From contig NZ_CXPG01000011.1 in the NCBI RefSeq assembly GCF_001403735.1, positions 1 to 64,000 on the forward strand: a stretch of 64,000 bases of DNA, in the 5' to 3' direction. Shown piece after piece: positions 13,025 through 29,047 of the stretch. The stretch is from Jannaschia rubra. Its GTDB lineage: Bacteria; Pseudomonadota; Alphaproteobacteria; Rhodobacterales; Rhodobacteraceae. The notes under the pieces are model-generated. The model had not been told where the DNA came from. It was given only the letters and a program-made list of their open reading frames with translations, and ran no database searches. Each line of letters starts with the position of its first letter. The first letter of the stretch is position 1. A program made the translations under genes and the position numbers.

Positions 13025-13834
13025 TCAGGTCGCGTCGCGATCCATGATCCATTCGACCTCCGGCGCGGCGATGAAGCGCCATTTGCGGAGCGGACCTGCC
13101 ATGACGTTCAGGTAATACAGTTCGAACCCATAGGGCGCGCCGCAGGGATGGTGGCCGCGCGGCACGCAGACGACATCGCCGTCCGAGACGGCCATGGTTT
13201 CGTCCAGGCTGCGGTCGTCGGTATAGACCCGCTGGACGGCAAAGCCGTTCGCCGGGTTCAGGCGGTGATAGTAGGTTTCCTCCAGCAGGGTGATCCGGGG
13301 GAAATCGTCTTCGTCGTGGCGGTGGCTCGGGAATGACGACCAATGGCCCGCTGGGGTGAACACTTCGGTCACCAGCAGGGAGTCCGCATAGTCCTCGGCT
13401 TCCATGGCGATGTTGTTGATGTGGCGCGTATTGGTGCCGCGACCCCGCTCGGTCAAGGTGATGCCCTCGGGCCCGATGCGCCGCGCGGCGTGCCCCGACC
13501 TGCCGGGCGCGGTGCAGACCGCGATGGTGCAGTCGGTTACGGCCACCGCGCGCCAATCGGTGCCGCCGGGCAGGTAGAGGCAGTGCGGCGGCGTCTTCTC
13601 GAACACGTCCATCCGGTCGCCCAGCACGCCCCAGTCGCGATCAGCCCCGGTAAGCCGGGCCTTCCCCTCGACCATCACGATGATCACCTCGCGGTCGCCC
13701 GTCGCCTCGATCGCCTCCTCTCCGGCGCGGAGGCGGTAGAGCGAGAAGCCGACGTAGGTCCAGCCGGCATCCTGGGGGGTGATGTCATGAACCTTGCCGT
13801 GGTCAGCGGTGGGGCGGTGCAGAAGTCGGGTCAT
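13025..13834 (-). CDS. iolB: 5-deoxy-glucuronate isomerase (IolB), copy 1
   Basis: IolB converts 5-deoxy-D-glucuronate to 2-deoxy-5-keto-D-gluconate in inositol catabolism. This 269-residue protein has the KduI/IolB double-cupin pattern with metal ligands in PSHRHDEDDFPR (about residues 170-181), LLEETYYHRLNP and VPRGHHPCGAPYG. It is the last gene of the minus-strand unit binding protein-permease-ATPase-iolB, 33 nt after the ATPase stop. A second, divergent IolB lies at 24855-25697. The frame is intact, unlike everything immediately to its left. Confidence 0.92.
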   Translation of the reverse strand: MTRLLHRPTADHGKVHDITPQDAGWTYVGFSLYRLRAGEEAIEATGDREVIIVMVEGKARLTGADRDWGVLGDRMDVFEKTPPHCLYLPGGTDWRAVAVTDCTIAVCTAPGRSGHAARRIGPEGITLTERGRGTNTRHINNIAMEAEDYADSLLVTEVFTPAGHWSSFPSHRHDEDDFPRITLLEETYYHRLNPANGFAVQRVYTDDRSLDETMAVSDGDVVCVPRGHHPCGAPYGFELYYLNVMAGPLRKWRFIAAPEVEWIMDRDAT

Positions 13835-13867: not shown

Positions 13868-14656
13868 TCAGACCGTTCCGCCGAGGCTTCCTTCCAGCGT
13901 GGCCATTTCCTGCCCGCCGGCCATCATGTCCTGCAATTCTTCCGGCGTGATCTCGCCGCGCTCGGCCGTGCCGAGCGTTTGTCCGCGGTTGAGGACGGTG
14001 AAGCGGTCGCCCACTGCCATCGCATGACGCACGTTGTGAGTGATGAAGACGACGGCGATCCCCTTCTTGCGGACCTTGTCGATGGTGGCGAGCACGTTCG
14101 ACGTCTGCCGAACCCCGAGCGCCGAGGTCGGCTCATCCAGGATGAGGACCTTGGCGCCGAAATACACGGCGCGCGCGATGGCGACGGTCTGGCGTTCGCC
14201 GCCCGACAGGGTGCCGACGGCCTGATCGGGGCCACGCAGGTTGATGCCCATACTCTGCATCTCTTCCATCGTGACGCGGTTGGCGAGGTCATGGTCGAAG
14301 AACGGCAACCCCGCGATCCGCCGGATCGGCTCGTTGCCCATGAAGAAGTTGCGGCTGACCGACATCAGCGGGATCATGGCGAGATCCTGATAGACCGTCG
14401 CGATGCCCGCCGCGATCGCGTCGCGCGGATCGGCGAAGGACATCGGCCGCCCCTCGAAGAAGATTTCACCGCTCGTCGGGCGGTGAACGCCCGACATCGT
14501 CTTGATGAAGGTCGATTTTCCCGCCCCGTTGTCGCCGAGAAGGCAGTGGCACTCGCCGGGCAGGATATCGACCGACACGCCATTGAGCGCGATTACGGAC
14601 CCGAAATGCTTTTCGATGTCCTTCATGCTGACGATGGGTTTCACTGTGGGCTCCAT
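13868..14656 (-). CDS. Sugar (probably inositol) ABC transporter ATPase, FrcA type
   Basis: This 262-residue single-domain ATPase starts at 14656 (MEPTVKPIVSMKDIEKHFG), overlapping the permease stop (ATGA). It shows Walker A GDNGAGKST (about residue 42), the Q-loop in TVYQDLAMIP, the signature LSGGERQ (about 150), Walker B VLILDEPTSALG and the switch His in VVFITHNV. It is one nucleotide-binding domain, as in fructose-type FrcA, not the duplicated RbsA form of about 500 residues. A homodimer is therefore expected under the permease. Context with iol genes suggests inositol as substrate. Confidence 0.93.
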   Translation of the reverse strand: MEPTVKPIVSMKDIEKHFGSVIALNGVSVDILPGECHCLLGDNGAGKSTFIKTMSGVHRPTSGEIFFEGRPMSFADPRDAIAAGIATVYQDLAMIPLMSVSRNFFMGNEPIRRIAGLPFFDHDLANRVTMEEMQSMGINLRGPDQAVGTLSGGERQTVAIARAVYFGAKVLILDEPTSALGVRQTSNVLATIDKVRKKGIAVVFITHNVRHAMAVGDRFTVLNRGQTLGTAERGEITPEELQDMMAGGQEMATLEGSLGGTV

Positions 14657-15774
14657 CAGCGCTCTCCCGTGATGATGCGGCGGATGTAGGTGTTGAGGAT
14701 CACCGCAAGGAGCAGGATCACGCCGAGGAACACGCGGAACAGCGACGATTCGACGTTCGCGAAGAACAGGCCCTGCTGGACGACCCCGAAGATCAGCGCG
14801 CCCAGGGCCGCGCCTATGACCGAGCCGTAGCCACCCGTCAGAAGCGCACCGCCGATCACGACCGCGATGATTGCCTCGAACTCCTTGAGAAGGCCCCGGT
14901 CGGCGCCGGCCGAGCCGAACTCCATGACCTGGCAGGTTGCGAAGACGGTGGCGCAGAACGCGGTGAAGACGAACATCAGGATCTTGACCCGGTCCACCGG
15001 AACGCCCGCATAGCGGGCCGCCTGCGCGTCGCCGCCGGCGGCGAAGATCCAGTTGCCGAAGCGGGTGCGGGTGAGAAGGATGTGGCCGAACACGATCAAC
15101 ACGAACGCCCAGATGATGAGCATCGGCACGCCGTTGACGACCGGTTCCCCGGCGCGGTTGCCGCGGTCGAAGACGCCGATGACGCCCGCGTCGCCGAGCC
15201 ACTGGAAGAACGGGCGCCCGATGGTGCCGCCGAACAGCGCGGCGAGCCAGTCACCCTCCGCCGCCTCGCGGATGCCGCCGATGATGGTCTTCCGCTCCAG
15301 CGTCTGGGGAATGAAGATGGTGAAGCCGCGCAGGATGAACAGCGTGGCCAGCGTCACGATGAAACTGGGCAGGCCGGTGCGCACGACGATGACGCCGTTG
15401 AGCGCGCCGAACGCCATGCAGATCGCGAAGGTGACGAGGATCGCGATCCACATGGGCCAGCCGAGCGTCACGCCGAAGATGGCGATCATCATGCCCGCGA
15501 AGCCGATCATCGAGCCGACCGAGAGGTCGAATTCTCCCGCGATCATCAGAAGGCAGGCGCCCACGGCGATGATCATGAACTGCGCGGACACGGTCGACCA
15601 GTTCAGGATGCCTTGCGCGTTGAACATGCCGCTGTCGTGGGCAAGCAGGGCGAAGAACGTGAAGACGGCGACCGTGCCGATGATGCCCCCCAATTCGGGA
15701 CGGATCAGAGCCTTTCGCCAGGGCGAAACGTCCTTCACGCGCTCGTCGATCACTGCCTGCGGCGTATCGGCCAT
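14656..15774 (-). CDS. Sugar (probably inositol) ABC transporter permease
   Basis: This 372-residue membrane protein belongs to the RbsC/FrcC permease family. It has about eight to ten hydrophobic segments, including the family-typical ACLLMIAGEFDLSVGSMIGFAGM (about residue 93) and the coupling region VFGHILLTRTRFGNWIFAAGGDAQAARYAGV. An insertion of roughly 50 residues around 165-215 (KTIIGGIREAAEGDW and on) is a periplasmic or cytoplasmic loop found in the larger subfamily. A GGAGGAG ribosome-binding site lies upstream, after an intercistronic hairpin. Confidence 0.93.
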   Translation of the reverse strand: MADTPQAVIDERVKDVSPWRKALIRPELGGIIGTVAVFTFFALLAHDSGMFNAQGILNWSTVSAQFMIIAVGACLLMIAGEFDLSVGSMIGFAGMMIAIFGVTLGWPMWIAILVTFAICMAFGALNGVIVVRTGLPSFIVTLATLFILRGFTIFIPQTLERKTIIGGIREAAEGDWLAALFGGTIGRPFFQWLGDAGVIGVFDRGNRAGEPVVNGVPMLIIWAFVLIVFGHILLTRTRFGNWIFAAGGDAQAARYAGVPVDRVKILMFVFTAFCATVFATCQVMEFGSAGADRGLLKEFEAIIAVVIGGALLTGGYGSVIGAALGALIFGVVQQGLFFANVESSLFRVFLGVILLLAVILNTYIRRIITGER

Positions 15775-15835: not shown

Positions 15836-16783
15836 TCAGCGGAATTCGCCCGCGAGTTCCTCGACCTTGTCGATGTTGTCCGCCGTCACGAAACCGGGGC
15901 CCGAGTTGACGTTGTTGCCGGGAAGCACCCCGTAGCGATCGTAGTTCGCCAGCACGACGACGGGCAGATAAGCCTGCAGGAAGGGCTGCTGGTCGATGCC
16001 CCACTGGATCGTGCCGTCCTTGATGGCCTGAACGATCTCGGCGCCCAGGTCGAAAGTGCCGAAGTAGATATCTCCCGCGAGACCCATTTCCTCGACCGCC
16101 TGGATTGTCGGATTGGCCGAGGTCGGGCCGAGCGTCAGAATCGCGTCGGTATCGGGGTTGGTATTCAGATAGGCCATGACGCGGTTCTTGATCTCGGCCG
16201 GGTCTTCTCCCGAGTCGATCATGCTGCTGCCAAGCTCGATGCCGAGACCGTCGGCGAAGCCCCGGCAACGGTCGGCGATGACGGGGTTGGAGATCTTGTG
16301 GTTGACGCAGACGAAGCTTTCGACACCGTCGCCCTTGGCCCGCTGACCCGCGGCCAGCCCTGCATCGTACTCGGGCTGGCCCACGAACATAAGCGCCCCA
16401 AGCTCACGAACCTGCTCCGGCGTGCCGGAGTTCATGATGATGACGTCGATGCCCTGATCGACGGCGGAGCGGATCGGGCCGGCCAGAACATCGTAGTCGG
16501 CCACTGTCGTTATGATCCCGTCGGGACCCGACGCGGCCGCCTGTTCGATGATGCGGGCCATGTCGGCCAGATCGCCGGTGGGCGGATTGCGGTATTCCAC
16601 ATTGACGCCCATCTGCTCCCCGGCAAGGTTCAGCGCGTTCTTGATGGTATTCCACCAGGCATCCGAATCGGGCGCGTGGCTCACCATGATGTAGGACAGA
16701 TCGTCGTCGATCGCTTGCGCGTGCGACGCGAACGGAACCGTCAGTGCCGTGGCTGCCAGCGCCAAAGTCTTGAAAAATTTCAT
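15836..16783 (-). CDS. Sugar (probably inositol) ABC transporter periplasmic binding protein
   Basis: The start is the ATG at 16783 (MKFFKTLALAATALTVPF), 7 nt after a GGAGG site; an in-frame start at 16798 is less well placed. The 315-residue product has a signal peptide cleaved near SHA-QA. It has a type I periplasmic-binding fold: PDSDAWWNTIKNALNLAGEQMGV, GIITTVADYD, DVIIMNSGTP, and hinge-region GPTSANPTIQAVEEMG. It resembles ribose/inositol-binding proteins. The ligand is inferred from the iol context and is not proven. Expression is probably repressed by the LacI protein through the palindrome at 16870-16889. Confidence 0.92.
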   Translation of the reverse strand: MKFFKTLALAATALTVPFASHAQAIDDDLSYIMVSHAPDSDAWWNTIKNALNLAGEQMGVNVEYRNPPTGDLADMARIIEQAAASGPDGIITTVADYDVLAGPIRSAVDQGIDVIIMNSGTPEQVRELGALMFVGQPEYDAGLAAGQRAKGDGVESFVCVNHKISNPVIADRCRGFADGLGIELGSSMIDSGEDPAEIKNRVMAYLNTNPDTDAILTLGPTSANPTIQAVEEMGLAGDIYFGTFDLGAEIVQAIKDGTIQWGIDQQPFLQAYLPVVVLANYDRYGVLPGNNVNSGPGFVTADNIDKVEELAGEFR

Positions 16784-16869
16784 AGTATTCCTCCCCATTT
16801 GCTACCAAGACCGGTCCGCTTTCGCGTCCTCCCCCGCTCTCGAGACAAAGCTAAGCACGGTTCGAGATT

Positions 16870-16889
16870 CTTTGCAACCGGTTGCAAAG
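16870..16889. promoter_or_regulatory. LacI-type operator 1
   Basis: CTTTGCAACCGGTTGCAAAG is a perfect 20-bp palindrome with the central CG of LacI-family operators. It lies between the divergent transporter operon (start 16783) and lacI (start 16935), so it can control both, including autoregulation. The core is repeated exactly at 21111-21126. Confidence 0.85.
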
Positions 16890-16934: not shown

Positions 16935-17927
16935 ATGGCAGTCACCCTCAAGGACGTAGCGCTTCGCGCCGGAGTCAGCCGCTCGGCGGTATCGCGCACG
17001 TTCACCGATGGCGCATCGGTCAGCGCCAAGACCCGAGACAAGGTCGAGCAGGCGGCGAGGGAGTTGGGATACGCCCCCTCCGCGCTCGCCTCGGCATTGT
17101 CGACGGGGCGGACCAAGCTGATCGGTCTGGTCTCCTCCAACTTTCACAACCCGCTTTTTCTGGAGATCTTCGACCTGTTCACACGGGGGTTGCAGGACCG
17201 CGGGTTGCGTCCCCTCCTCGTCAACCTGTCGGGGGAGACGGATCCGCAGGCGTCGCTCAGGATGCTGCGGCAGTATTCCGTCGACGGGGTGATTATCGCA
17301 TCGTCGACCCTGCCGCCCAGCTTCGCGCGGGCCTTCAAGGATGCCGGTTTGCCGGTGGTGCATTCCTTCGGCCGTCGGCTCAGCGTGCCCGAGACCCATG
17401 TCGTCGGCATCGACAACGCGGAATGCGGGCGCATGGCGGCACGCACGCTTCGGGCGCGGGGGTACCGGTCCATCGCCTTTCTCGGCGGGCCGGAGGCGGC
17501 AACCTCCACGCAGGACCGGCTGGCCGGGTTCCGGGAAGGGGCAGGGGCCCTCGCCGTTCCCGCCACCTTTGCCGCGTCCTATACCTTCGAGGCGGGGCGC
17601 ACGGCGATGCAGGCCGTGCTAGGCGGGGGGGCGCCGGCCGACGCCTACTTCTGCGGCGATGACGTCCTGTCGATCGGCGCGATGTCCGCCTTGCGGGACG
17701 CCGGGTTCGGCGTGCCGCGGGACGTGGGTATCATCGGCCTGAACGACATGGAGATCGCGGGCTGGGCCAACATCGACCTGACCACCATCCATCAGCCCGT
17801 CGCGGACATCATCGCGTCATCCATCGACCTGATCGTCGCGACCGTGGCGACCCCCGATTTGGCGCCCGAGGCGCGGCTGTTCCCCTGCCGGATCGTGGAG
17901 CGCGGGACGCTCAGGCCTCTGCCCTGA
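16935..17927 (+). CDS. LacI-family transcriptional regulator of the inositol cluster
   Basis: This 330-residue repressor has an N-terminal LacI helix-turn-helix (TLKDVALRAGVSRSAVSRTF, residues 4-23) and hinge helix (APSALASALSTGR). The periplasmic-binding-like sensor domain follows (LIGLVSSNFHNPLFLEIFDLF, then DDVLSIGAMSALRDAGFGVP and LTTIHQP). The effector is probably an inositol or a pathway intermediate. Two perfect palindromes matching the LacI consensus lie in the two divergent promoter regions of the island, one beside its own start. Its 3' end overlaps the convergent Gfo/Idh gene by 17 nt. Alphaproteobacterial inositol clusters are often controlled by RpiR-type IolR, so a LacI protein here is a variant. 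Confidence 0.93.
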   Translation: MAVTLKDVALRAGVSRSAVSRTFTDGASVSAKTRDKVEQAARELGYAPSALASALSTGRTKLIGLVSSNFHNPLFLEIFDLFTRGLQDRGLRPLLVNLSGETDPQASLRMLRQYSVDGVIIASSTLPPSFARAFKDAGLPVVHSFGRRLSVPETHVVGIDNAECGRMAARTLRARGYRSIAFLGGPEAATSTQDRLAGFREGAGALAVPATFAASYTFEAGRTAMQAVLGGGAPADAYFCGDDVLSIGAMSALRDAGFGVPRDVGIIGLNDMEIAGWANIDLTTIHQPVADIIASSIDLIVATVATPDLAPEARLFPCRIVERGTLRPLP

Positions 17928-19077
17928 ACATGGGTGGGCGGGCGTCGACCCATGCGCCGTCGGCCTTGCCCGATTGCGCCACGGCGAAGACCGCCGCCAT
18001 CGAGCGCAGCCCGTCCTCGGCACGCGGATAGAGGTTCGCCGCCGGGTCCATCGCGCGACCGTCCTTCTGCGCGCGGATCGTCTCCGCCATATCGGCGTAG
18101 ATGTTGGCGAAGGCCAGCGGCATCCCTTCGGCATGCCCGACGGTCACGCGGCTGGCGCGGTCCGCCTCGGGCGAGAGGTTCCCCTCGCCGCGCTCGATCA
18201 CCTGCAGGCGCCCGCCGAGCGGCATATGGTAGAGCTGGTTCGGCTGTTCCTGCGCCCAGCGGAGGCCGCCGGTTTCCCCGAACACCTGAAGCGTCAGCCC
18301 GTGTTGCCGCCCGAGCGCGATGGAGGATGTCCAGAGCCGCCCGACCGTCCCGCCGTCCATCCGGAAGTTGACCATCGCGTCATCCTCGAGCACCCGGCTG
18401 TCGATGGTCGAGACGATGTCGGCGCTCAGGCGTTCGACGTTCTGGCCGGTGACGAAGCTGGCCATGTGCATCGCGTGGATGCCGCAGTCCGCGAACTGCG
18501 CCGACACGCCGGCCTGTGCGGGATCGTATCGCCAGCGGACGCGCGGATTGTCGGCATCGGCCGCGTCGGCATGATGGCCGTGGGCGAACTCGGCGACGAC
18601 CACGCGGATGCGGCCAAGATCGCCCCGCGCCACCATCGCCCGCATGTGCCGCACCAGCGCATAGCCGGTGTAGCCATAGTTGACGGCGCAGATGCGTCCG
18701 CTGCGCTCGGCAAGGCGCACGATCTCCTCGCCCTCATCAACGGTCATCGTCATCGGCTTTTCGCAGAGGACGTTGAACCCGGCTTCGAGGAAGGCCTTGG
18801 TAATCTCGAAATGCGTCGCGTTCGGCGTGGCGACCGTCACGAGATCCAGACGGTCCGCGCGCGCCCGCTCGGCCCCCAGCATCTCGCGCCAGTCGCCGTA
18901 GGCGCGATCCGGGACGAGGCCGAGGCGTTGGCCATAGTCGCGCCCCGCATCGGCCCGGTGGTCGAGCGCGCCCGCCGCGAAGGTGAAGGCACCGTCCAGT
19001 CCGGCGGCCAGCCGGTGCGCCGGTCCGATCTGGCTGCCTTCGCCGCCGCCGATCATTCCCCAGTTGAGCTTTGCCAT
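17911..19077 (-). CDS. Gfo/Idh/MocA-family oxidoreductase (inositol cluster, paralogue 1)
   Basis: The start at 19077 (MAKLNWGMIGGGEGSQIGPAH) gives 388 residues. The N-terminal Rossmann fold has GGGEGSQIG, and the cofactor/catalytic motif is CEKPMTM (about residue 101). The sequence AQFADCGIHAMHMASFV carries a His-containing active-site segment. The family oxidises ring or sugar hydroxyls with NAD(P). It is probably a dehydrogenase for an inositol stereoisomer or an inosose intermediate. It is the last gene of the minus-strand run Gfo/Idh (21086)-IolE-like-this gene, 1 nt downstream of the IolE-like stop. Confidence 0.88.
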   Translation of the reverse strand: MAKLNWGMIGGGEGSQIGPAHRLAAGLDGAFTFAAGALDHRADAGRDYGQRLGLVPDRAYGDWREMLGAERARADRLDLVTVATPNATHFEITKAFLEAGFNVLCEKPMTMTVDEGEEIVRLAERSGRICAVNYGYTGYALVRHMRAMVARGDLGRIRVVVAEFAHGHHADAADADNPRVRWRYDPAQAGVSAQFADCGIHAMHMASFVTGQNVERLSADIVSTIDSRVLEDDAMVNFRMDGGTVGRLWTSSIALGRQHGLTLQVFGETGGLRWAQEQPNQLYHMPLGGRLQVIERGEGNLSPEADRASRVTVGHAEGMPLAFANIYADMAETIRAQKDGRAMDPAANLYPRAEDGLRSMAAVFAVAQSGKADGAWVDARPPMFRAEA

Positions 19078-19078
19078 G

Positions 19079-19969
19079 TCAGAATCCGATCGATTGGAGG
19101 TATTCGCGATTCGCGCGCGCATCGCCCAGCGTGTCGGTGCCCATCGACGGATCGCAGTCCTGCTCGACCGTGCACCAGCCTTCGTAATTCGCATCCAGAA
19201 GCACCTGCCGCACCGCCGGGAAATCGACGTCACCCTGGCCCAGGTTGCAGAAGATCCCCTGGCCGCAGGCGTCGTAGAACCCGGTCCGGTTCTCGATCGC
19301 GCGGGCCTTTACCACCGGGTCGATGTCCTTGAAATGCATGTAGCTGATGCGCTCCATGTGCCGTTTCATGAAGGCTACGGGGTCGTATCCGGCATAGGAA
19401 TGGTGGCCCGTGTCGAAACAGATCTTGAGGATGTCTTCCGGCACTTCGTCCAGCAGGCGGTCGAGTTCCGGCTCGAAATCCATGAACCCCGCGGCGTGGG
19501 CATGGATGCCGACGGTCAGACCGTATTCCTCCGCTCCCATGCGGGCGATGGTGGCGATCCGATCGCGGAAGGGCGCCCATTCGATGTCCTGCATCTGCTC
19601 GGATTCGCCGGCCCGCCCGGCGGTCGGCGCGCGGCGGGGCGAGATGGAGTCGATCAGCACGAGATGCTTTGCCCCATGCGCGACCAGCGCCTTGCAGGTT
19701 CGCACCGCGCCATCCTTCACGTCGTCCCAGGCGTCGGGGTCGTGGAAGGCGCGGAAGACCACGCCGCCGATGAGGGTAAGGTCGTGTTCCGCCAGCGCGT
19801 CGGCCAGAATGGCGGGATCTTCCGGCATGAAGCCCACGGGGCCGAGTTCGATGCCCTTGTAACCTGCCTCTGCGCATTGCTTGAGGACCGACTTCCAGTC
19901 GGGGTTGCGCGGGTCGTTGGCGAATTCCACACCCCAGGAGCAGGGCGCGTTTCCGATGCGTATCGTCAT
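19079..19969 (-). CDS. Inosose dehydratase/isomerase-like TIM barrel (IolE/IolI superfamily)
   Basis: The ATG at 19969 (MTIRIGNAPCSWGVEF) gives a 296-residue protein of the sugar phosphate isomerase/epimerase family. The metal-site residues are spread over IELGPVGFMP, HLVLIDSISPRR, VGIHAHAAGFMD, KICFDTGHHSYAGYDP and EGWCTVEQDCDP. IolE dehydrates 2-keto-myo-inositol to the IolD substrate; IolI isomerises inososes. No other IolE candidate is present, so IolE function is inferred by elimination. However, the N-terminal motif GNAPCSWGVEF differs from classical IolE sequences I know. A longer TTG-start version (19984) is less likely. Confidence 0.78.
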   Translation of the reverse strand: MTIRIGNAPCSWGVEFANDPRNPDWKSVLKQCAEAGYKGIELGPVGFMPEDPAILADALAEHDLTLIGGVVFRAFHDPDAWDDVKDGAVRTCKALVAHGAKHLVLIDSISPRRAPTAGRAGESEQMQDIEWAPFRDRIATIARMGAEEYGLTVGIHAHAAGFMDFEPELDRLLDEVPEDILKICFDTGHHSYAGYDPVAFMKRHMERISYMHFKDIDPVVKARAIENRTGFYDACGQGIFCNLGQGDVDFPAVRQVLLDANYEGWCTVEQDCDPSMGTDTLGDARANREYLQSIGF

Positions 19970-19973
19970 TCTT

Positions 19974-21086
19974 CTAACCTTCAATCGAAACCCAGCTTCG
20001 GGAAGCGGAGGATGCCCAGGCGGTGTCGACCACCCGGTTCACCTCCATCCCGTCGCGGAAGGTGGGAAACATGTTCTTTCCTGTCTCGATCGCGCGGAGA
20101 AAGTCCCGCGCCTCGATGATGATCTGGTCAAGATAGCCAGTCCCATGACCGGCTCCCTGACAGAAAGCGGCATAGTCGGGATGTGCGGGGCCCGTCAGGA
20201 TACGGGTGAATCCGCGCCCCGCCTCGGGCCCTTCGCGAAGATAGACGTGAAGGGAGTTCTGGTCCTCCTGATCGAAACGGATGGACCCTTTGGTGCCATG
20301 CACCTCGTAGGCATAGCCCATCTTCCGCCCGGTGGCGGTCCGGCTGAAGTAGAGATGCCCCATGGCGCCGCCGGCGAACCTTACCATCATCTGCGCGTGA
20401 TCGTCGTTTGCGACCTGCTCCGGGCCGTCAGGCCCGGGACGGGTGTCGTGCACGGTCTCGATGACGGCGGACAACGCGGCGATGGGGCCCATCAGCGCGA
20501 GCGCGCAGTTGATCATGTGCGGCGCAAGGTCGCCCATGGCGCCCGAGGCCCGATCCCGCGTGCGCCAGTTCGCGGGGGCGTCGGGGTCGGCCAGAAAATC
20601 CTCGGTATGCTCGCCCCGGAACCAGGTCACGTCCCCGATGGCGCCTTCGGCGATCAGACGTCGGGCTTCCTGCGTCGCCGGCGTGCGGACGTAGTTGAAG
20701 CCGGTCATGTTGACCGCGCCTGCGGCTTCGGCGGCGGCGACCATCGCCTTGCTGTCGGCCAGCGACGCACCCAGCGGCTTTTCGCAGAACACCGGCAACC
20801 CGCGCGCGAAGGCGGCTTCGGCGATGGCGCGATGGGTAGACTGGGGGGAGGCGATGATCACCGCCTCCACCGCCGGGTCCGCGACCAGGTCGCGCCAGTC
20901 GTCCGTAGCGCCTTCGAACCCGAACGCAGCGCGATACCGTTCCGCGGACTCGGGGGAAGTGGCGCAGACCTTGACCAGGCGCGGGCGCAGATTCGTCTCG
21001 AACACCGCGCCTACGGCGGACATGGCGACGGCATGAGCCTTTCCCATGTAGCCTCCGCCCACGATCCCGATTCCGATTGGTCGCAT
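19974..21086 (-). CDS. Gfo/Idh/MocA-family oxidoreductase (inositol cluster, paralogue 2)
   Basis: This 370-residue dehydrogenase starts at 21086 with the Rossmann motif IGIVGGGYMGKAH and has the family catalytic motif CEKPLGAS (about residue 96). MGDLAPHMINCALALMG includes the likely active-site His. It is the first gene of the minus-strand operon facing operator 2, and the IolE-like gene starts 4 nt after its stop. It may oxidise scyllo-inositol, D-chiro-inositol or a modified inositol. Sequence alone cannot decide between these. Confidence 0.88.
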   Translation of the reverse strand: MRPIGIGIVGGGYMGKAHAVAMSAVGAVFETNLRPRLVKVCATSPESAERYRAAFGFEGATDDWRDLVADPAVEAVIIASPQSTHRAIAEAAFARGLPVFCEKPLGASLADSKAMVAAAEAAGAVNMTGFNYVRTPATQEARRLIAEGAIGDVTWFRGEHTEDFLADPDAPANWRTRDRASGAMGDLAPHMINCALALMGPIAALSAVIETVHDTRPGPDGPEQVANDDHAQMMVRFAGGAMGHLYFSRTATGRKMGYAYEVHGTKGSIRFDQEDQNSLHVYLREGPEAGRGFTRILTGPAHPDYAAFCQGAGHGTGYLDQIIIEARDFLRAIETGKNMFPTFRDGMEVNRVVDTAWASSASRSWVSIEG

Positions 21087-21109: not shown

Positions 21110-21127
21110 ATTGCAACCGGTTGCAAT
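21110..21127. promoter_or_regulatory. LacI-type operator 2
   Basis: ATTGCAACCGGTTGCAAT is a perfect 18-bp palindrome whose 16-bp core is identical to operator 1. It lies between the divergent starts of the Gfo/Idh gene (21086) and iolD (21180). A single repressor could therefore switch both catabolic operons and the transporter together. Confidence 0.85.
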
Positions 21128-21179: not shown

Positions 21180-23051
21180 ATGACCTCAACCGGACGAACC
21201 GTCAGGCTGACCGTGGCGCAGGCCATCGTCCGCTGGCTGATGAATCAGTACATCGAGATCGACGGCGTCGAGACGCGCATCTGCGGCGGGGGTTTCGGCA
21301 TCTTCGGCCATGGCAACGTCCCCTGCCTGGGCGAGGCGCTCTATGCCGTTCATTCGGACCTGCCGCTCTACCGCGGTCAGAATGAACAGGGGATGGGATT
21401 CGCGGCCGCGGCCTATGCCAAATATCACCTGCGCCGCCGCTTCATGTTCTGCACCGCCAGTGCGGGGCCGGGGACGGCGAACCTGCTGACCGCCGCGGCG
21501 TTGGCGCATGCGAACCGCCTTCCGATGCTGATGCTTTGCGGCGACACCTTCATCACGCGGCTGCCGGACCCGGTGCTGCAGCAGCTGGAGCATTTCGGCG
21601 ATCCGACGCGGGGCCTGAACGATGCGTTCCGCGCCGTTAGCCGCTTCTGGGACCGGATCACCCACCCCGCGCAGGTTCTGCAATCCCTTCCTGCCGCGCT
21701 CGCCACCATGCTCGACCCCGCCGATTGCGGCCCGGCCTTCCTCGGGCTGCCGCAGGACGTGCAGGGCTGGGCGTGGGACTATCCCGAACGATTCTTCGAC
21801 CGGCGGGTGCACCGCATCCGCCGGCAGGCCCCGGATACCGCCGAGGTGGCCGAGGTCGCGGATCTTCTGCGCGCGGCTCGACGCCCCGTTCTGATCGCGG
21901 GCGGAGGCATCCAGTATTCCCGCGCCGTCGAGACGCTGACGACGTTCGTCGAGGCGCACGACATTCCAGTTATCGAGACCATCGCCGGGCGCGCGAACCT
22001 GGTCGACGACCATCCGCTCAACATCGGGCCCGTCGGTGTCACGGGCTCCGACTCGGCCAACGCCATCGCCGCCCAGGCCGACCTGATCCTGGCCGTGGGC
22101 ACCCGGCTGCAGGACTTCACCACGGGGTCCTGGACCGCCTTCGCCCCCGACGCACGGTTGGTGACGTTGAACGTCGGTCGCCACGATGCCGCGAAGCACT
22201 TGGCGACGACGATGGTGGGCGACGCCCGGCTGGGCCTGGAGGTGCTGGGCGCGGCATTGGGTGATCACAGAGCGCCTTCCGAATGGGTGGATCTGGCGAA
22301 AGCCGAGCGCCGCGCGTGGATGCGGACGGTCTCCGAAACCGTCCGGCCCGGAAACCGTCCGAACAGCTATGCCCAGGCCATCGGCGTGGTGAACGACCTC
22401 TGCGACCCATCCGACCGGATCGTCGCGGCCGCCGGCGGCCTGCCGGCCGAAGTCACGGCCAACTGGCGCACGCTGAAGCCCGGGACCGTGGACGTGGAAT
22501 TCGGCTTTTCCTGCATGGGATATGAGATCGCGGGTGGCTGGGGCGCACGCATCGCGCAGGCGGAGGCGGAGCCGGACCGCGACACCATCGTCTTCTGCGG
22601 CGACGGATCGTACCTGTTGATGAACTCGGACATCTATTCCAGCGTCCTGACCCGAAAGAAGCTGATTGTCCTCGTTCTCGACAACGGCGGCTTCGCGGTC
22701 ATCAACAAATTGCAAAACAATACCGGACAGGAGAGTTTCAACAACCTGATCGCGGATTGCCCCACCGTGCCCGAGCCCTTCACAGTGGATTTCGCGGCCC
22801 ATGCCGCCGCGATGGGTGCCAATGTGGAAACGGTCGAGAATCCGGCCGGTCTGGCCGAGGCGTTTCGCCGCGCGCAGGCCGCCGACAAGACGAGCGTCAT
22901 CGTGATGAAGGTCGATCCCTACGAGGGCTGGACCACCGGCGGCCATGCCTGGTGGGAGATCGGAACGCCCGAGGTGAGCGAGACGGAAAGCGTCCGCGAG
23001 GCCCATGAGGAGACCGAAGCGATGCGTGACCGCCAGCGGCAGGGGGTCTGA
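21180..23051 (+). CDS. iolD: 3D-(3,5/4)-trihydroxycyclohexane-1,2-dione hydrolase
   Basis: IolD is a thiamine-diphosphate enzyme that opens the inositol-derived ring to 5-deoxyglucuronate. The ATG at 21180, behind an AGGAGG site, gives 623 residues, near the family length. It has the N-terminal ThDP glutamate in GQNEQGMGFAAAAYAK (about residue 68) and the FAD/middle domain around GGGIQYSRAVE. The Mg-ThDP motif is CGDGSYLLMN with downstream DNGGF (about 470-500). C-terminal GGHAWWEIGTPEVS is typical of IolD. It heads the plus-strand operon iolD-phyH-iolC-iolB2-iolJ-iolG. Confidence 0.96.
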   Translation: MTSTGRTVRLTVAQAIVRWLMNQYIEIDGVETRICGGGFGIFGHGNVPCLGEALYAVHSDLPLYRGQNEQGMGFAAAAYAKYHLRRRFMFCTASAGPGTANLLTAAALAHANRLPMLMLCGDTFITRLPDPVLQQLEHFGDPTRGLNDAFRAVSRFWDRITHPAQVLQSLPAALATMLDPADCGPAFLGLPQDVQGWAWDYPERFFDRRVHRIRRQAPDTAEVAEVADLLRAARRPVLIAGGGIQYSRAVETLTTFVEAHDIPVIETIAGRANLVDDHPLNIGPVGVTGSDSANAIAAQADLILAVGTRLQDFTTGSWTAFAPDARLVTLNVGRHDAAKHLATTMVGDARLGLEVLGAALGDHRAPSEWVDLAKAERRAWMRTVSETVRPGNRPNSYAQAIGVVNDLCDPSDRIVAAAGGLPAEVTANWRTLKPGTVDVEFGFSCMGYEIAGGWGARIAQAEAEPDRDTIVFCGDGSYLLMNSDIYSSVLTRKKLIVLVLDNGGFAVINKLQNNTGQESFNNLIADCPTVPEPFTVDFAAHAAAMGANVETVENPAGLAEAFRRAQAADKTSVIVMKVDPYEGWTTGGHAWWEIGTPEVSETESVREAHEETEAMRDRQRQGV

Positions 23052-23891
23052 ATGAAGACCTTTGCGCATGACCGGATCGACCCCGACGCGATCGTCGATG
23101 AGTTGTTGAACGGCGATGGAGCCGTGCGTCTGACGGGGTTGTTCGCGCCGGAGGACATCGCCGAGGCGCGGCGCACCGTCATGGAGCATTCGGACCGTGA
23201 TGCCGGAAAGGTGACGCATTTTCAGGGTGTGGCCGAGGCGGAGGGCGCGCTCGCTCTGCAACGCCGGGTCTGGAACCTGCTTGCCAAGGGCGAGGTCTTC
23301 GCCCGCATGGCAGCCCATCCCGCCCTGATGGACATCCTTCGCAGGTTTCTGGGCACCGAGTTCATCATGGGTTCCATCGCCGCGAACCGCATCCTGCCGG
23401 GCGGGCCGGGGCAGGAGCCGCATGTGGACTATCCCTATTGGGACTTCCATGCACCCGAGACGCACCCCGTGGGGCTGAACGCCAGTTTTCCGATGAACGC
23501 GCAGGTCTCCGTCATCCTCGACCCGTTCACCGTGGAAAGCGGCGCCACAGCCTATGTGCCCGGAAGCCAGCGCCACCTGCGCTATCCGACCGAGGCGGAC
23601 GATTTCCATGCCGGAGCCGAGCGCATGACGGGCGAGCCGGGCGACGTCGCCCTGTTCTTCGGCGCAGCTTGGCACTGCGCCATGCCGAACCGGTCGGACC
23701 ATGACCGGAGCGCGATCCTGATCCAGTACCTGCCGAAATGGGTGAAACCGATGGAAGACATGCCGGCCGCCCTGCCGCCCGACGTGATCGAGGGTGCCTC
23801 GCCCGACCTGCGCCAGCTTCTGGGCCTGAACTACCCCTATCCCGAAGTGCTGGACACGGCGGCAGGCGGCAACGTGGAGGGCCGGGCATGA
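23052..23891 (+). CDS. Phytanoyl-CoA dioxygenase (PhyH)-family Fe(II)/2-oxoglutarate oxygenase
   Basis: This 279-residue protein starts at the base after the iolD stop and overlaps iolC by 4 nt. It has the double-stranded beta-helix iron site: HVD in QEPHVDYPYWD (about residue 125), the distal His in AAWHCAMPN (about 200), and a following Arg for 2-oxoglutarate (DHDRSAIL). The PhyH family hydroxylates very varied substrates. It is not part of the known inositol pathway, yet it is locked into the iol operon. Hydroxylation or oxidative O-demethylation of a modified inositol is a plausible role, by inference only. Confidence 0.88.
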   Translation: MKTFAHDRIDPDAIVDELLNGDGAVRLTGLFAPEDIAEARRTVMEHSDRDAGKVTHFQGVAEAEGALALQRRVWNLLAKGEVFARMAAHPALMDILRRFLGTEFIMGSIAANRILPGGPGQEPHVDYPYWDFHAPETHPVGLNASFPMNAQVSVILDPFTVESGATAYVPGSQRHLRYPTEADDFHAGAERMTGEPGDVALFFGAAWHCAMPNRSDHDRSAILIQYLPKWVKPMEDMPAALPPDVIEGASPDLRQLLGLNYPYPEVLDTAAGGNVEGRA

Positions 23892-24874
23892 AGCTGGGTG
23901 GCAAGGATTTCCTGATCGTCGGACGCGCGGGAATGGATTTCTATCCCGATCCCCCCGGCACCCGGACCGAGGATGCCGCGCACTTCGTGTCCTGCCTGGG
24001 CGGCAGCAGCGCGAACATCGGCGTGGCGCTGGTGAAGCAGGGGTGCACCGCCGCGCTCGTCACCCGCGTCAGCGACGATGCCATCGGGCGGTTCGCGGTG
24101 AACCAGCTTGACCACTATGGCGTCGATCGCACCCACGTGACACCGGTGGGCGGCGAGGCGCGCAATTCTCTGGCCGTGGTCGAGACGCGGGTGGAGGACC
24201 ATCAGTCCGTCATCTACCGCAACGGTGCCGCGGATTTCGAGATGACCGAGGCGGATATCGAGGCGGTCGATTACGCGCCTTACGACGCCCTCATCACCAC
24301 CGGCACCGTCTTCGCCGCCGAGCCGAGCCGCACCGCCGCCTTCCGGGCCTTCGATCTGGCGCGAGGGGCCGGGCTGCCGCTGATCTTCGACATCGACTAC
24401 CGCCCCTATTCCTGGCCCTCGGCCGAGGTCGCCGCCGAGGTGCTGGGCCGCGCCGGGGCGGCCTGCGACTGCATCGTGGGCAACGACGTCGAGTTCGGGT
24501 TCATGGCCGGCCGCTACGACCGCGGCCTGGACAAGGCGCGCGCGCTTGCGTCCGAAGGCAAGCTGATCGTCTACAAGATGGGCGAGAAGGGCGCGATCAC
24601 CTTCCACGAAGGCGAGGAAATCCGGACCGGCATCTATCCGACCAAGGCCCTGAAGCCTACCGGCGCGGGCGACAGCTTCATGGGCGGGTTCATCGCCGCG
24701 CTGGCCAACGGCCACGATCTGAAGACGGCGATCCTGCGCGGCTCCGCCTCGGCGGCGATGGTCGTCGCCCGCGTGGGCTGTGCTCCGGCCATGCCGACCA
24801 CCGACGAGCTCGAGGCCTTTCTGGCCGATCACCCCGGACCGACGGAGCAATCCCATGCACATCCCGCCCCATGA
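23888..24874 (+). CDS. iolC: 5-dehydro-2-deoxygluconokinase
   Basis: IolC phosphorylates 2-deoxy-5-keto-D-gluconate. The 328-residue PfkB-family kinase begins MKLGGKDFLIVGRAGMDFYPD. It has the substrate-lid GGSSANIGVAL (about residue 38), IDYRPYSWP, and the catalytic anion hole/Asp in PTGAGDSFMGGF (about 258-269). Some alphaproteobacterial IolC proteins carry a fused DUF2090 aldolase-like domain; this one is the stand-alone kinase, with a separate aldolase gene downstream. It overlaps phyH by 4 nt and the next gene by 20 nt. Confidence 0.95.
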   Translation: MKLGGKDFLIVGRAGMDFYPDPPGTRTEDAAHFVSCLGGSSANIGVALVKQGCTAALVTRVSDDAIGRFAVNQLDHYGVDRTHVTPVGGEARNSLAVVETRVEDHQSVIYRNGAADFEMTEADIEAVDYAPYDALITTGTVFAAEPSRTAAFRAFDLARGAGLPLIFDIDYRPYSWPSAEVAAEVLGRAGAACDCIVGNDVEFGFMAGRYDRGLDKARALASEGKLIVYKMGEKGAITFHEGEEIRTGIYPTKALKPTGAGDSFMGGFIAALANGHDLKTAILRGSASAAMVVARVGCAPAMPTTDELEAFLADHPGPTEQSHAHPAP

Positions 24875-25697
24875 CAACCGCAACAAGCCCATCGTCGACG
24901 TGGACGATGCGACCGTGCCGCTCAACTATTTCAACATCGTCAAGCTGACCGAGGGGCAGAGCTTCGACTACCGTGTTTCCGGCTACGAGACCTGCATCGT
25001 GCCCGCGACCGGCACCGTCACGGTCGAGGTCGCAGGCGAGACCTACCGCGACATCGGCCTGCGCACCGAGGACGTATTCGAGGGCGACCCGGAGGGCGTC
25101 TATGTACCCACCGACACCGCCGCCCGCATTACCTGCCGCTCGTCCGCCGCCGAAGTCTTCGTCGCGGGAGCGAAGTTCGACAAGACGCTGAAGCCGTTCG
25201 AGGTGCGCGCAAAGGATCTCGACAAGGTTCAGTACGGCTCGGACGACACCAAGACCCACCGCCGCATCGCCCACGTTCTGGGCGCGCAATACCACGACCG
25301 GGTGGGCCGCCTGTTGGTGAGCGAGCTGTTCACCGTTGGCGAGGGCGGATGGTCCGGGTTTCCCAGCCACAAGCACGACACCGACCGCCTGCCGGAGGAG
25401 ACGCGCCACGACGAGACCTACAACTTCCGCTTCAAGCCGAACTACGGCTCGGGCGTTCAACTCCTCCAGCGCGTCGACAATGAGCCGGGCGACGCCTACC
25501 ACGTCATGGATGGCTCGACGATCTGCATCGACAAGGGCTATCATCCCTCCTGCGTCCTGCCCGGATATCAGATGTACTACTTTACCATCCTGGGCGGTCT
25601 GAGCCAGCGGTCCTTGAAGCAGTACTTCCAGCCCACGCACGAAGCGCAGCTGCGGACCATACCCGGCATCATGGACATGGTGGCCAAGTTCAAATGA
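24855..25697 (+). CDS. iolB: 5-deoxy-glucuronate isomerase (IolB), copy 2
   Basis: The ATG at 24855 (MHIPPHDNRNKPIVDVDD) gives a 280-residue KduI/IolB-family protein. The metal ligands sit in GFPSHKHDTDRLPEETRHDETYNFRF (about residues 170-195, written here by its key His/Glu positions) and in DKGYHPSCVLPGYQMYYF (about 225-242). It is clearly divergent from copy 1 at 13025-13834: the N-terminal half shares little obvious sequence. It ends in LSQRSLKQYFQPTHE, which copy 1 lacks. It may be the main isomerase, or serve a different deoxyuronate. Confidence 0.88.
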   Translation: MHIPPHDNRNKPIVDVDDATVPLNYFNIVKLTEGQSFDYRVSGYETCIVPATGTVTVEVAGETYRDIGLRTEDVFEGDPEGVYVPTDTAARITCRSSAAEVFVAGAKFDKTLKPFEVRAKDLDKVQYGSDDTKTHRRIAHVLGAQYHDRVGRLLVSELFTVGEGGWSGFPSHKHDTDRLPEETRHDETYNFRFKPNYGSGVQLLQRVDNEPGDAYHVMDGSTICIDKGYHPSCVLPGYQMYYFTILGGLSQRSLKQYFQPTHEAQLRTIPGIMDMVAKFK

Positions 25698-26509
25698 CCC
25701 TTGCCACGCTGACCGATGTCTTCCGTCCCGACCGCGCCGTCGGCGGATTGGTCTGCCTGGGATGGGAGGACGCACGCGCCTATGCCCAAGCCGCCCAGTC
25801 CCTGAACGTGCCCGTCATCCTTCAGGCAGGTCCAAGTTGCCGCGATCACACGCCGCTGCCCGTCCTCGGCGCAATGTTCCGGTGGCTGGCGGCGGACGTG
25901 GACGTACCGGTCGTCGCGCATCTCGACCATGGCTACGACGCGGAAACCTGCCGCGCCGCGATCGAGGCGGGCTTCACCTCGGTGATGTTCGACGGCTCGA
26001 AACTGCCGCTCGACGAGAACATCGCCCGCACCCGCGAGATCGTCGAGATGGCCCATGCGGCGGGCGTGAGTTGCGAGGGGGAGATCGGGTTCGTCGGCTA
26101 TGCCGAAGGCGTCGAGAGCCGGGGCACAGACCCTGGCGAAGCCGCGCGGTTCGCTTCCGAGACCGGGGTCGACGCGATGGCCGTGTCGGTCGGCAACACG
26201 CATCTGCAGACGCAGGCAGGGGCAGGGCTGGACGAAGACCTGATCGCGGCCATAGAGGCGGTCACCGATGTGCCCCTCGTCATTCACGGCGGATCCGGCG
26301 TTCCCCATGCGCAACGGGCGCGGCTGGCCCGGACCTCCGCCATCGCCAAGTTCAACATCGGCACCGAATTGCGACAGGCGTTCGGTGCGGCCCTGCGGGA
26401 AGCCGTCAACCGCGACCCGGACCGCTTCGACCGTGTCCAGATCCTGCGCGACACACAGGAGCCCGTGATGCGGGCGGCTGTCGCCGTCCTTCGATCCCTG
26501 AAAGGCTGA
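25694..26509 (+). CDS. iolJ: Class II aldolase, 6-phospho-5-dehydro-2-deoxy-D-gluconate aldolase type
   Basis: This 271-residue class II (zinc) aldolase of the FbaA/IolJ family cleaves the phosphorylated intermediate to dihydroxyacetone phosphate and malonate semialdehyde. The start overlaps the iolB2 stop by 4 nt. It has VVAHLDHGYDAE with the zinc His (about residue 77), CEGEIGFVGYAEG (about 120), the second His region in SVGNTHLQ, and the phosphate-binding VIHGGSGVP and KFNIGTELR. The iol context fixes the likely substrate. The gene symbol follows the IolJ role and has not been tested by phylogeny. Confidence 0.88.
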   Translation: MTLATLTDVFRPDRAVGGLVCLGWEDARAYAQAAQSLNVPVILQAGPSCRDHTPLPVLGAMFRWLAADVDVPVVAHLDHGYDAETCRAAIEAGFTSVMFDGSKLPLDENIARTREIVEMAHAAGVSCEGEIGFVGYAEGVESRGTDPGEAARFASETGVDAMAVSVGNTHLQTQAGAGLDEDLIAAIEAVTDVPLVIHGGSGVPHAQRARLARTSAIAKFNIGTELRQAFGAALREAVNRDPDRFDRVQILRDTQEPVMRAAVAVLRSLKG

Positions 26510-26512: not shown

Positions 26513-27499
26513 ATGCTCAACATCGGCATCCTCGGCTGCGGCCGCATCGGACAGGTTCACGCGGCTTCGCTCGACCGGATATCCGGGGCGCGTCTCGTCG
26601 CCGTCGCGGACGCCGTTCCCGATGCCGCATCGCGTCTGGCGGACCGCAGCGGCGCCCGTGCGATGGAAGCGAACGAACTGATCGCGTCGGCCGACATCGA
26701 CGCGGTGGTGATCTGTACGCCGACTGACACGCACTTCGATCTGATCCATGCCGCGGCGACAGCCGGCAAGGCGATCTTCTGCGAAAAGCCCGTGGATCTC
26801 GACGCCGCCCGCATCCGCATTTGCGCCGAGGCGGTGGCGCGCGCCGGTGTGCCCTTCATGACAGGGTTCAACCGTCGCTTCGACCCGAGCTTCGCCGCGC
26901 TCCGCCGGCGCCTGCTGGAGGGTCGGATCGGTTCGCCGGAACTTGTTACGATCCTCAGCCGCGATCCCGCTCCCCCGCCGATCTCCTACATCGCGACATC
27001 CGGCGGGCTGTTCCGCGACATGATGATCCACGATCTCGACATGACGCGCTTCCTGCTGGGCGAGGAGCCTGTCAGCGTCCATGCCACCGGGTCCGCGCTT
27101 GTCGATCCGGCAATCGGGGACGTAGGCGACGTCGATACGGCCGCGGTCCTCCTGACCACCGCGACGGGCCGGATCGCCCAGATCAGCTGCTCCCGGCGCG
27201 CGACCTACGGCTACGACCAGCGGATCGAGGTGCACGGCGCCAAGGGGATGCTGCGCGCCGGGAACCGACTGGAGACGACGGTGGAGGTGGCCGACGACGG
27301 AGGGTTCTGCCGCGACCCGGCCATGAGCTTCTTCCTGGAACGCTATGCGGAGGCCTATCTGGCCGAAATGCGCGTCTTCGTCGAAGCCGTCACGCAAGGC
27401 ACGGCGCCCGATCCGGGGATGGAGGACGGCCTGCGTGCCCAGATCCTCGCCGATGCCTGCGACCGGGCCTGGCGCGAAAGGCGGGTGGTCGAGATCTGA
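26513..27499 (+). CDS. iolG: Inositol 2-dehydrogenase
   Basis: This 328-residue Gfo/Idh/MocA enzyme has the Rossmann motif ILGCGRIGQVHA, the catalytic CEKPVDLD (Lys about 94) and GFNRRFDPSFAAL. The active-site segment is GGLFRDMMIHDLDMTRFLLG with Asp and His at the positions used by IolG for proton transfer. It oxidises myo-inositol to scyllo-inosose with NAD. It is the last gene of the plus-strand operon, 3 nt after iolJ. Of the three Gfo/Idh paralogues in the island, this is the one that matches classical IolG best. Confidence 0.92.
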   Translation: MLNIGILGCGRIGQVHAASLDRISGARLVAVADAVPDAASRLADRSGARAMEANELIASADIDAVVICTPTDTHFDLIHAAATAGKAIFCEKPVDLDAARIRICAEAVARAGVPFMTGFNRRFDPSFAALRRRLLEGRIGSPELVTILSRDPAPPPISYIATSGGLFRDMMIHDLDMTRFLLGEEPVSVHATGSALVDPAIGDVGDVDTAAVLLTTATGRIAQISCSRRATYGYDQRIEVHGAKGMLRAGNRLETTVEVADDGGFCRDPAMSFFLERYAEAYLAEMRVFVEAVTQGTAPDPGMEDGLRAQILADACDRAWRERRVVEI

Positions 27500-27548: not shown

Positions 27549-29047
27549 CTATCTGCGCTTGCAGTCTTCGGAATAGCGTTCGTAGATCGCCGGATTGAGA
27601 TCGAATTCGCTTCCAACGGTTTGGCGGGCATCAGGTCGGCCGAAAATACGCGCGCGGCGGCGAAGGCTTCGGACGTGAGGGTGCGCAGCCCATCGGGCAG
27701 GGCGCCCAGCCCGCCGCCGGGGGTGCGGGAGGCCATGTGGACCCCCCCAGATGCCGAAGGACGGGACCGAGGTCTGATAGCTGACGACCTCCGGGAACAT
27801 CTCCTCCAGCGTCCGGGCGACCGTCCAACAGGTGTTGGTGGTCGAGAAGGGCGAGGAACTCTGCGTCACCAGCGTCGCGTTCTGGGTCATGACGGCAACG
27901 ACCAGTGAATAGACCTGCAGCGAATAGAGCTTGGACAGCGCCTCGTTGTGCGGATCGGGGAAGTCTATGATGACCCGATCATAACGCCGGTCGATTTCGC
28001 GGACGTAGAGGAACGCATCCTCGTTGTGGGCATGGACCTTGGGCGGCGCGACGCTGTCGCCGTTCAGCCGCGTGACCGGCGCGAATTCGATGCCCAGCCG
28101 CGTCATCTCGGGGTCCAGGTCCACGAGGTCGATCCGGGGGACGGAAGGATGGCGCAGCACCTCGCGCACGGCCATCCCGTCGCCTCCGCCCAGGATCAGC
28201 ACCGTCTCCGGCGGGGCGGGCGTCCAGGACATGACGGGATGCACCAGTGCCTCGTGATAGCAGTATTCGTCGACCTGGGCGGATTGCAGGTGGCCATCGA
28301 TGAACAGGCGGACGTCGTTGTGCGTCCAGGTGTTGGTTACGATGAGCGACTGATGGGGCGACTGCGTCTTCCAGACGACCCGGTCGAAATACAAATGGTC
28401 CTGCGCATAGGCCATGACATTCGACGCGCCCAGCGTCAGGACGAACAGCGCCGCGATGGTCAGGCAGATCTAGACCAGCATCCGTCGATAATCGTCGAGG
28501 TGATCGCGCAGTCGGAAGACGTTGGGCAGGGCCACCAGCGCGTTCGTCAGCCCGATCGCGAAGGAGGCGGTGATGAGCCTCAGCGACGGCAGCAGCAGGA
28601 TGGGAAAGGCCACCGACCCGATCAGGGCGCCGACGTAGTCGCGCGACAGCACGTCAGCGAGCGATTCCCTCATGGTGGAGGTTGCGACAGGACGCGGGTG
28701 AGGAGCGGTATCTCGAGGCCGACGAGGAACCCGATCGTCGAGATGAAGGCGAACATCCCCGTCGTGTAAAGCCATGGCGCAAAGGGAAACAGCATGAACA
28801 GGGATACGCCGCAAAGCCCGCGGACGATGGCCAGCACGAGTTCGACCCGGATGAAGGCCTGGATCAGGTTGCCGTGGATGAACCGAGAGACGTAGGAGCC
28901 GATGTCCATGGCGAACATGAAGAAGCCGATGGTCAGAGAGAACTGATAGACCGAGTCGCCGATCAGATAGCTCGACACCGTGCCGATGATGAGCCCGTAG
29001 ACGATGCCGCAGAGCGCGACGACGAGGATGGACCCCCGAAGGATGAT
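27549..29047 (-). pseudogene. Membrane-bound spermidine-synthase-like protein, multiply broken
   Basis: Pieces of one protein can be followed on the minus strand. Membrane segments begin near 29045 (LVVALCGIVYGLIIGTVSSYLIGDSV) with no start codon at the expected place. A frameshift occurs near 28680. An in-frame TAG lies at 28472-28470. The synthase domain follows: RVVWKTQSPHQSL, then LILGGGDGMAVREVLRH (SAM site), LVDLDPEM and IIDFPDPH. Two compensating shifts near 27735 and 27620 disturb the C-terminus, which ends YERYSEDCKRR. The intact form would be an integral-membrane polyamine aminopropyltransferase. It cannot be functional as read here. Confidence 0.85.

Follow-up and report, generated by a model that had tools for sequence, protein, structure and literature searches.

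To our knowledge, bacterial inositol catabolism makes no use of an oxygenase, and we know of only poor descriptions of how bacteria degrade methylated or deoxygenated inositols, compounds that are abundant in plants and present in some algae. In the catabolism of rhizopine, the methyl group of the compound is removed by MocDEF. Rhizopine catabolism requires mocC and mocDEF besides mocBA (PMC10107442), and MocA is described as a Gfo/Idh enzyme in PMC7676230. An iron/2-oxoglutarate oxygenase paired with an NAD(P)H-dependent reductase is known from KanJ and KanK of kanamycin biosynthesis, which act on an aminoglycoside (PMC4700567). In the levoglucosan dehydrogenase route, the scheme given for LgdA-LgdC in PMC7676230 consists of oxidation, elimination, hydration and reduction, without an oxygenase step. 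LacI-family regulators of inositol genes have been assigned to seven orthologous groups in PMC4052901; the main text of this paper contains neither "phytanoyl" nor "dioxygenase", and the same two words are absent from the main texts of a survey of inositol gene clusters (PMC9430895) and of a paper on the Caulobacter inositol module (PMC2597717). The main text of PMC5507952 was also checked for them. In the single literature collection searched, we found no account of a PhyH-type enzyme in an iol operon.

The locus described here lies in a stretch of 64,000 nucleotides from Jannaschia rubra (contig NZ_CXPG01000011.1, positions 1 to 64,000; hereafter the window), which contains an inositol island on both strands. 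The island begins on the minus strand with a canonical iolB gene (13025..13834; TIGR04378, 337 bits for a cut-off of 205) and the genes of an ABC transporter, i.e., an ATPase (13868..14644; Pfam ABC_tran, with an approximate start taken from the profile match), a permease (14656..15774; Pfam BPD_transp_2) and a substrate-binding protein resembling rhizopine-binding proteins (15836..16798; NF052284, 284 bits for a cut-off of 420). A LacI-family regulator follows on the plus strand (16935..17927; Pfam LacI and Peripla_BP_3), then three further minus-strand genes encoding the Gfo/Idh dehydrogenase Gfo1 (17911..19077; Pfam match, translated start), an IolE-like TIM barrel (19079..19984; TIGR04379, 170 bits for a cut-off of 290) and a second Gfo/Idh dehydrogenase, Gfo2 (19974..21086). 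The best model for Gfo2 is that of levoglucosan dehydrogenase (NF052479), with a score of 294 bits that is far under the cut-off of 650. Divergently from these genes, the plus strand carries an operon composed of iolD (21180..23051; TIGR04377, 801 bits for a cut-off of 715; start placed at the ATG after GGAGG), phyH (23052..23891), a stand-alone iolC kinase gene (23888..24874; TIGR04382, 310 bits for a cut-off of 300), a variant iolB encoding a protein that we call IolB′ (24852..25697; TIGR04378, 150 bits for a cut-off of 205), a class II aldolase gene in the IolJ position (25694..26509; TIGR01859, 211 bits for a cut-off of 343) and the inositol 2-dehydrogenase gene iolG (26513..27499; TIGR04380, 424 bits for a cut-off of 355). 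Just past iolG, the minus strand encodes a spermine/spermidine synthase domain (27549-28415); the C-terminal tail that comes after it has an odd composition and might mark a frameshift.

The island thus resembles the known bacterial iol pathway in that IolD, IolC and IolG pass their NCBIfam cut-offs and a canonical IolB is encoded nearby, and differs from it by the sub-threshold scores of IolB′ and of the IolE-like protein and by the insertion of an oxygenase gene. The genome of J. rubra contains a single IolD above the cut-off and no match to the IolE model other than the TIM barrel of the island. Its binding protein is related to that of rhizopine catabolism; the regulator is of the LacI family here and is MocR there. 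These profile matches bear out the flanking genes, the three Gfo/Idh genes and the two iolB genes that the original prediction had recognized. IolB′ is present in 108 of the 295 genomes that constitute our sample of the window's family, and surveys based on TIGR04378 may miss it, the window's copy scoring below the IolB cut-off.

The ATG of phyH (23052-23054) directly follows the TGA stop codon of iolD (23049-23051), and its stop codon shares four nucleotides (ATGA, 23888-23891) with the start of iolC, exactly the arrangement first proposed. The gene encodes a protein of 279 amino acids, whose sole domain is Pfam PhyH (PF05721; 82.8 bits for a cut-off of 22, 5.6e-23), and this protein is the only PhyH match found in a search of the genome. 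As in the PhyH (phytanoyl-CoA dioxygenase) superfamily, it presents a HxD…H triad and a downstream arginine: H124, D126, H208 and R219 are invariant in all 67 aligned orthologues, so that the iron site had rightly been described as intact. Alignment with solved dioxygenases, together with general knowledge of the family, designates H124, D126 and H208 as the predicted iron ligands and R219 as the predicted 2-oxoglutarate ligand. phyH is therefore an intact gene for a PhyH-family oxygenase of predicted activity. The closest sequence match among proteins of solved structure reaches 41.7 bits, none of them being a near relative. An AlphaFold2 model (pLDDT 76.6, pTM 0.80) compared by Foldseek is consistent with the double-stranded beta-helix fold; its best match is TlxIJ (TM 0.68), and its top matches, i.e., TlxIJ, SptF, DhiD (8zyb) and FtmOx1, with TM values of about 0.7, are all dioxygenases. 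These fold matches give no hint of the substrate, and the pocket of the model was left unread because residues 122-133, which include two of the iron ligands, are modelled poorly (below 50).

To examine the genomic context of phyH, relatives were collected by a scan of genome contigs, which confirmed 119; the best 80 of these were kept and the window's proteins were mapped onto their loci. The order iolD-phyH-iolC that the original prediction proposed to look for was recovered in 69 of these best 80 of 119 relatives (67 counted directly, plus L014 and L041, in which the hit ends touch), in a scan whose patterns were built from the window's own PhyH protein and which therefore favours close relatives. 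Among the remaining 11, one (L007) is cut by a contig end and 10 are located elsewhere: four in Inquilinus-type genomes, five in Luteibacter and one in Tateyamaria (L076). One of the Inquilinus-type genomes carries the label Mycobacterium sp. KBS0706, and its PhyH groups with those of Inquilinus in our tree. Chance does not account for this placement: PhyH proteins 67-79% identical to that of the window are encoded in Luteibacter and in members of several alphaproteobacterial families, and in most cases their genes fill the iolD-iolC slot. In a PhyH tree that was built quickly and has many weak branches, the six context groups require five changes, the minimum possible. More widely, close relatives are rare: relatives with at least 50% identity were detected in four of 385 genomes of the class, and relatives at 1e-40 in three of 398 genomes of the phylum, the window's genome being included in both counts. 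IolD is present in all 16 chosen genomes that have a PhyH relative of at least 48% identity. With 69 of 80 relatives in the slot and IolD accompanying PhyH in each of those 16 genomes, phyH is tied to inositol catabolism and is best interpreted as broadening this pathway. That part of the original prediction stands; two of the arguments attached to it do not, as described below.

The first was that phyH is locked inside the iol operon. Among the 295 genomes of the family sample, IolD is present in 154. A PhyH match at 1e-20 was obtained in nine genomes; one of these proteins, only 35% identical, was excluded, leaving eight carriers of an orthologue (the window and seven others), in all of which phyH occupies the iolD-iolC slot. 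These eight are found among the 108 IolB′ genomes and none among the 187 others (Fisher 2.7e-4), and the remaining 100 IolB′ genomes yielded no PhyH match. We fetched 80 regions from genomes without a PhyH orthologue, 40 picked by IolD and 40 by IolB′. The 40 IolD-picked regions comprise 23 variant operons with the gene order of the window and 17 other kinds of IolD locus; in these 23 operons lacking phyH, the iolD and iolC hits are separated by 4 to 52 bases, compared with 862 to 878 bases in seven phyH operons. In the 40 IolB′-picked regions, iolD adjoins iolC in 15 and the variant iolD is absent from the region in 25, where Gfo2 mostly faces iolC directly. The latter 25 (numbered within L204-L242) read Gfo1, with or without the TIM barrel, Gfo2, then iolC, variant iolB and aldolase. 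Altogether, 63 of the 100 IolB′ genomes without PhyH were examined: 38 show an iolD-iolC junction, and 25 have no iolD within the region retrieved. Across the family sample, phyH was seen only in operons that contain iolD. The Tateyamaria genome with the out-of-slot copy L076 has its iolD and iolC matches about 40 bases apart, its slot being empty.

For comparisons between operons, we retained 96 of 169 loci with the six core genes near full length and merged identical IolD rows. This left 93 operons with distinct IolD, 59 with PhyH and 34 without, two sets that were drawn unalike, since 56 of the 59 come from the contig scan and all of the 34 from the family sample; some contig-scan loci are the same as those of family genomes and appear as identical rows in the operon tree. 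In a tree of joined IolD, IolC and IolB′ (95 rows), the presence of PhyH changes 14 times, at least 11 of these changes being forced by starred branches, for a mean of 20.8 with shuffled labels. The gene has therefore been gained or lost many times at one slot. Together with the 100 IolB′ genomes lacking a match and the 38 junctions lacking the gene, this shows that phyH is not locked in place: as a single gene, it is optionally inserted at one fixed position of the variant iol operon.

The second argument was that three Gfo/Idh dehydrogenases and two IolB proteins reflect a substrate range widened along with PhyH. We considered these genes as a PhyH-linked set and rejected it: operons without PhyH also carry Gfo1, the TIM barrel, Gfo2 and IolG, two regions among the first 40 retrieved (L159 and L161) additionally encode a protein closely related to the canonical IolB, and the rhizopine-like transporter is likewise present in PhyH-less operons. 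PhyH is thus not tied to Gfo1, to IolG, to the second IolB or to the transporter; its special tie is limited to Gfo2 and LacI. A search for companion genes by neighbour enrichment in 115 loci (77 with PhyH and 38 without, in regions of differing length) produced no convincing candidate and gave no pointer to the chemistry of the reaction. Apart from PhyH itself, low p values were obtained for an ATPase cluster found more often in loci that lack PhyH (26 of 38 loci, versus 24 of 77), for a cluster of reverse-strand open reading frames (16 and 0) whose representative overlies the PhyH-iolC junction of L197, and for clusters with Tateyamaria representatives.

The tie to Gfo2 and LacI emerged from a comparison of protein distances over the 59 PhyH operons, using a correlation statistic that ignores the kinship of species. 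With this statistic, PhyH correlates best with Gfo2 (0.75), followed by IolD (0.45), IolC (0.40), TIM (0.30), IolB′ (0.25) and Gfo1 (0.21); with the other genes held fixed, Gfo2 retains a partial correlation of 0.67, and none of the other genes exceeds 0.15. Gfo2 ranked first of the six genes in 500 of 500 random half-sets. It remained ahead after thinning to 21 operons distant in IolD (0.61, the others reaching at most 0.28) and to seven operons (0.61 versus 0.54 for IolD), and the two values became nearly equal when the Tateyamaria clade and some long rows were removed (0.69 versus 0.65). PhyH also correlates with LacI (0.76 in 41 rows, 0.63 in 50 rows). In the 41 operons with three further genes, IolG correlates with PhyH at 0.62 and LacI with Gfo2 at 0.85. 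The correlation between LacI and Gfo2 is 0.70 in 50 PhyH operons and 0.18 in 30 PhyH-less operons, in sets drawn unalike. Physical linkage alone does not explain the covariation of Gfo2 and PhyH, because IolD stands between them; a transfer history shared by PhyH, Gfo2 and LacI may be an alternative source of it. We also predicted that Gfo2 would fall into PhyH-linked and PhyH-free types, and this failed: labels of PhyH presence change 25 times on the Gfo2 tree, against 27.6 for shuffled labels, and 75 of 500 shuffles reached the observed value. On the trees of Gfo1, TIM, IolD, IolC, IolB′, IolJ and LacI, the changes number 18 to 23 each. Gfo2 and LacI also persist without PhyH, even in operons without iolD. 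Gfo2 and LacI are the likely partners of PhyH.

Nine of the out-of-slot relatives, the four Inquilinus-type and the five Luteibacter loci, correspond to a bare module without iol neighbours, in which the genes encoding Gfo2 and PhyH are divergent. A LacI gene is present in eight of the nine, the ninth (L072) being a contig of 4.4 kb, and IolD was found on another contig in all three bare-module genomes searched. The LacI-type palindrome TTGCAACCGGTTGCAA is present in two exact copies in the window, one in the Gfo2/iolD gap (21111..21126) and one in the gap between the transporter operon and lacI (16872..16887), and emerged from an open palindrome scan of these gaps; shuffled sequences gave a mean of 0.13 copies with up to three mismatches. 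A palindrome of this type is found in the Gfo2/iolD gap of 90 of the 93 operons, i.e., 58 of the 59 with PhyH and 32 of the 34 without, and 51 further copies are located upstream of lacI. All nine bare modules have TTGCAAGCGCTTGCAA in their Gfo2/PhyH gap. Middle positions were left partly free in these counts, and 138 of the 145 hits contain the exact core TGCAACCGGTTGCA. No such palindrome was found in loci L076, L119, L121, L122, L244 and L245. The TTGCAACCGGTTGCAA-type palindromes are predicted operators to which LacI would bind.

More distant relatives are found in other settings. In a genome with a PhyH of 48% identity (G505), the gene lies in a large iol operon encoding a canonical IolC with DUF2090, IolD and IolB in addition to variant IolC, IolB′ and aldolase, and headed by a Gfo2 homologue of 43% identity. 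In between, the same superoperon encodes a second PhyH protein (L122:10588-11478; 133 bits), only 23% identical to that of the window, an indication that inositol operons acquired oxygenases on more than one occasion. In another genome (G636, 57% identity), phyH adjoins genes for an SDR and an HpcH/HpaI aldolase; this genome has IolD and yielded no Gfo2 match at 1e-40. In a third (G897, 62% identity, L244:6690-10057), no iol gene is present in 19 kb and an aldo-keto reductase gene lies nearby. These contexts weaken a strict rule. In a plasmid collection, relatives were detected in 49 records, none with at least 60% identity, the closest being fragmentary and carried by two Caballeronia plasmids. 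In one of these, from Caballeronia sp. SBC1, the relative was matched as fragments in two pieces (L119:12001-12341).

We propose that PhyH is an accessory Fe(II)/2-oxoglutarate oxygenase acting at the entrance of inositol catabolism together with Gfo2, a reading to which we assign a probability of about two in three; this figure does not extend to the chemistry of the reaction. Since the operon often runs without phyH, the step would be outside the core pathway, and, given its association with a single dehydrogenase and a single sensor, PhyH should act on, or next to, the molecule that is sensed. PhyH would thus probably enable its carriers to use a chemically modified inositol. We give somewhat better than even odds to the more specific proposal of a transferable cassette of three genes, for LacI, Gfo2 and PhyH, which would provide inositol catabolism with an oxygen-dependent entry step and make a modified cyclitol (an O-methyl-inositol, for example) accessible to the iol pathway. 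A substituted cyclitol would enter through the ABC transporter and relieve repression by LacI; PhyH, using O2 and 2-oxoglutarate, would remove or replace the substituent to give an inositol or inosose, which Gfo2 would oxidize or reduce; the IolE-like protein, IolD, IolB′, IolC and the aldolase would then break the ring.

Several chemistries can be envisaged for this entry step. O-methyl-inositols are the commonest modified cyclitols and one extra enzyme would be enough to admit them, so our first guess, a tentative one, is that PhyH O-demethylates a methyl-inositol (similar to pinitol, ononitol or bornesitol), releasing formaldehyde and an inositol that Gfo2 would oxidize to inosose. Glutathione-dependent detoxification of formaldehyde is widespread; the absence of any formaldehyde-handling gene accompanying PhyH in the enrichment analysis of 115 loci nevertheless counts against this guess. 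The accessory, single-gene distribution of phyH, of the kind expected at a pathway entrance, and its tie to one dehydrogenase argue for it. So does the resemblance of the transporter's binding protein to the rhizopine-binding family, one natural rhizopine being an O-methyl-inosamine (PMC10107442), but the same transporter also serves operons without PhyH.

A less likely alternative is that PhyH hydroxylates a deoxy-inositol or cyclohexanetetrol to give an inositol, subsequently oxidized by Gfo2. Enzymes of the PhyH family most commonly catalyse plain C-H hydroxylation, some algae contain deoxy-cyclitols, and many carriers of PhyH, judging from their names, are presumably marine. However, no feature of the sequence favours this reaction, and the Luteibacter and Inquilinus-type carriers are ones that we take to be non-marine.

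Still less likely, in our estimation, is a deamination of inosamine to inosose by analogy with KanJ, with a Gfo/Idh enzyme as the reductase in the place of KanK. PMC4700567 describes how KanJ and KanK turn an amino group into a hydroxyl group with 2-oxoglutarate, Fe2+, O2 and NADH, and the rhizopine-like character of the binding protein also speaks for this reaction. Kanamycin B dioxygenase (KanJ) is indeed among the weak phmmer matches of PhyH (2e-4, residues 82-246), but fungal dioxygenases score better and the binding protein is below the rhizopine cut-off. KanJ and KanK operate in biosynthesis, the enzymes considered here in a catabolic setting.

We regard as improbable that PhyH acts on a later intermediate of the pathway or on a by-product of IolD instead of the incoming substrate. 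The position of phyH between iolD and iolC, and its restriction in the family sample to operons with iolD, would fit such a role; against it, the bare modules associate PhyH with Gfo2 and LacI with no iol gene nearby, and 38 regions hold iolD and iolC without PhyH. Least probable of all is that phyH is a passenger with an unrelated substrate, retained in its slot through recombination between the flanking iol genes, as its many gains or losses at a single slot and the solo copies L076 and G897 might suggest, given the strong conservation of its sequence, the palindrome-linked bare module in two distant groups and the covariation with the non-adjacent Gfo2 and LacI.

Growth experiments and enzyme assays can address the proposal of an oxygenase at the entrance of the pathway directly: the gene is defined, its candidate partner dehydrogenase and a predicted operator have been identified, and operons with and without phyH occur naturally.
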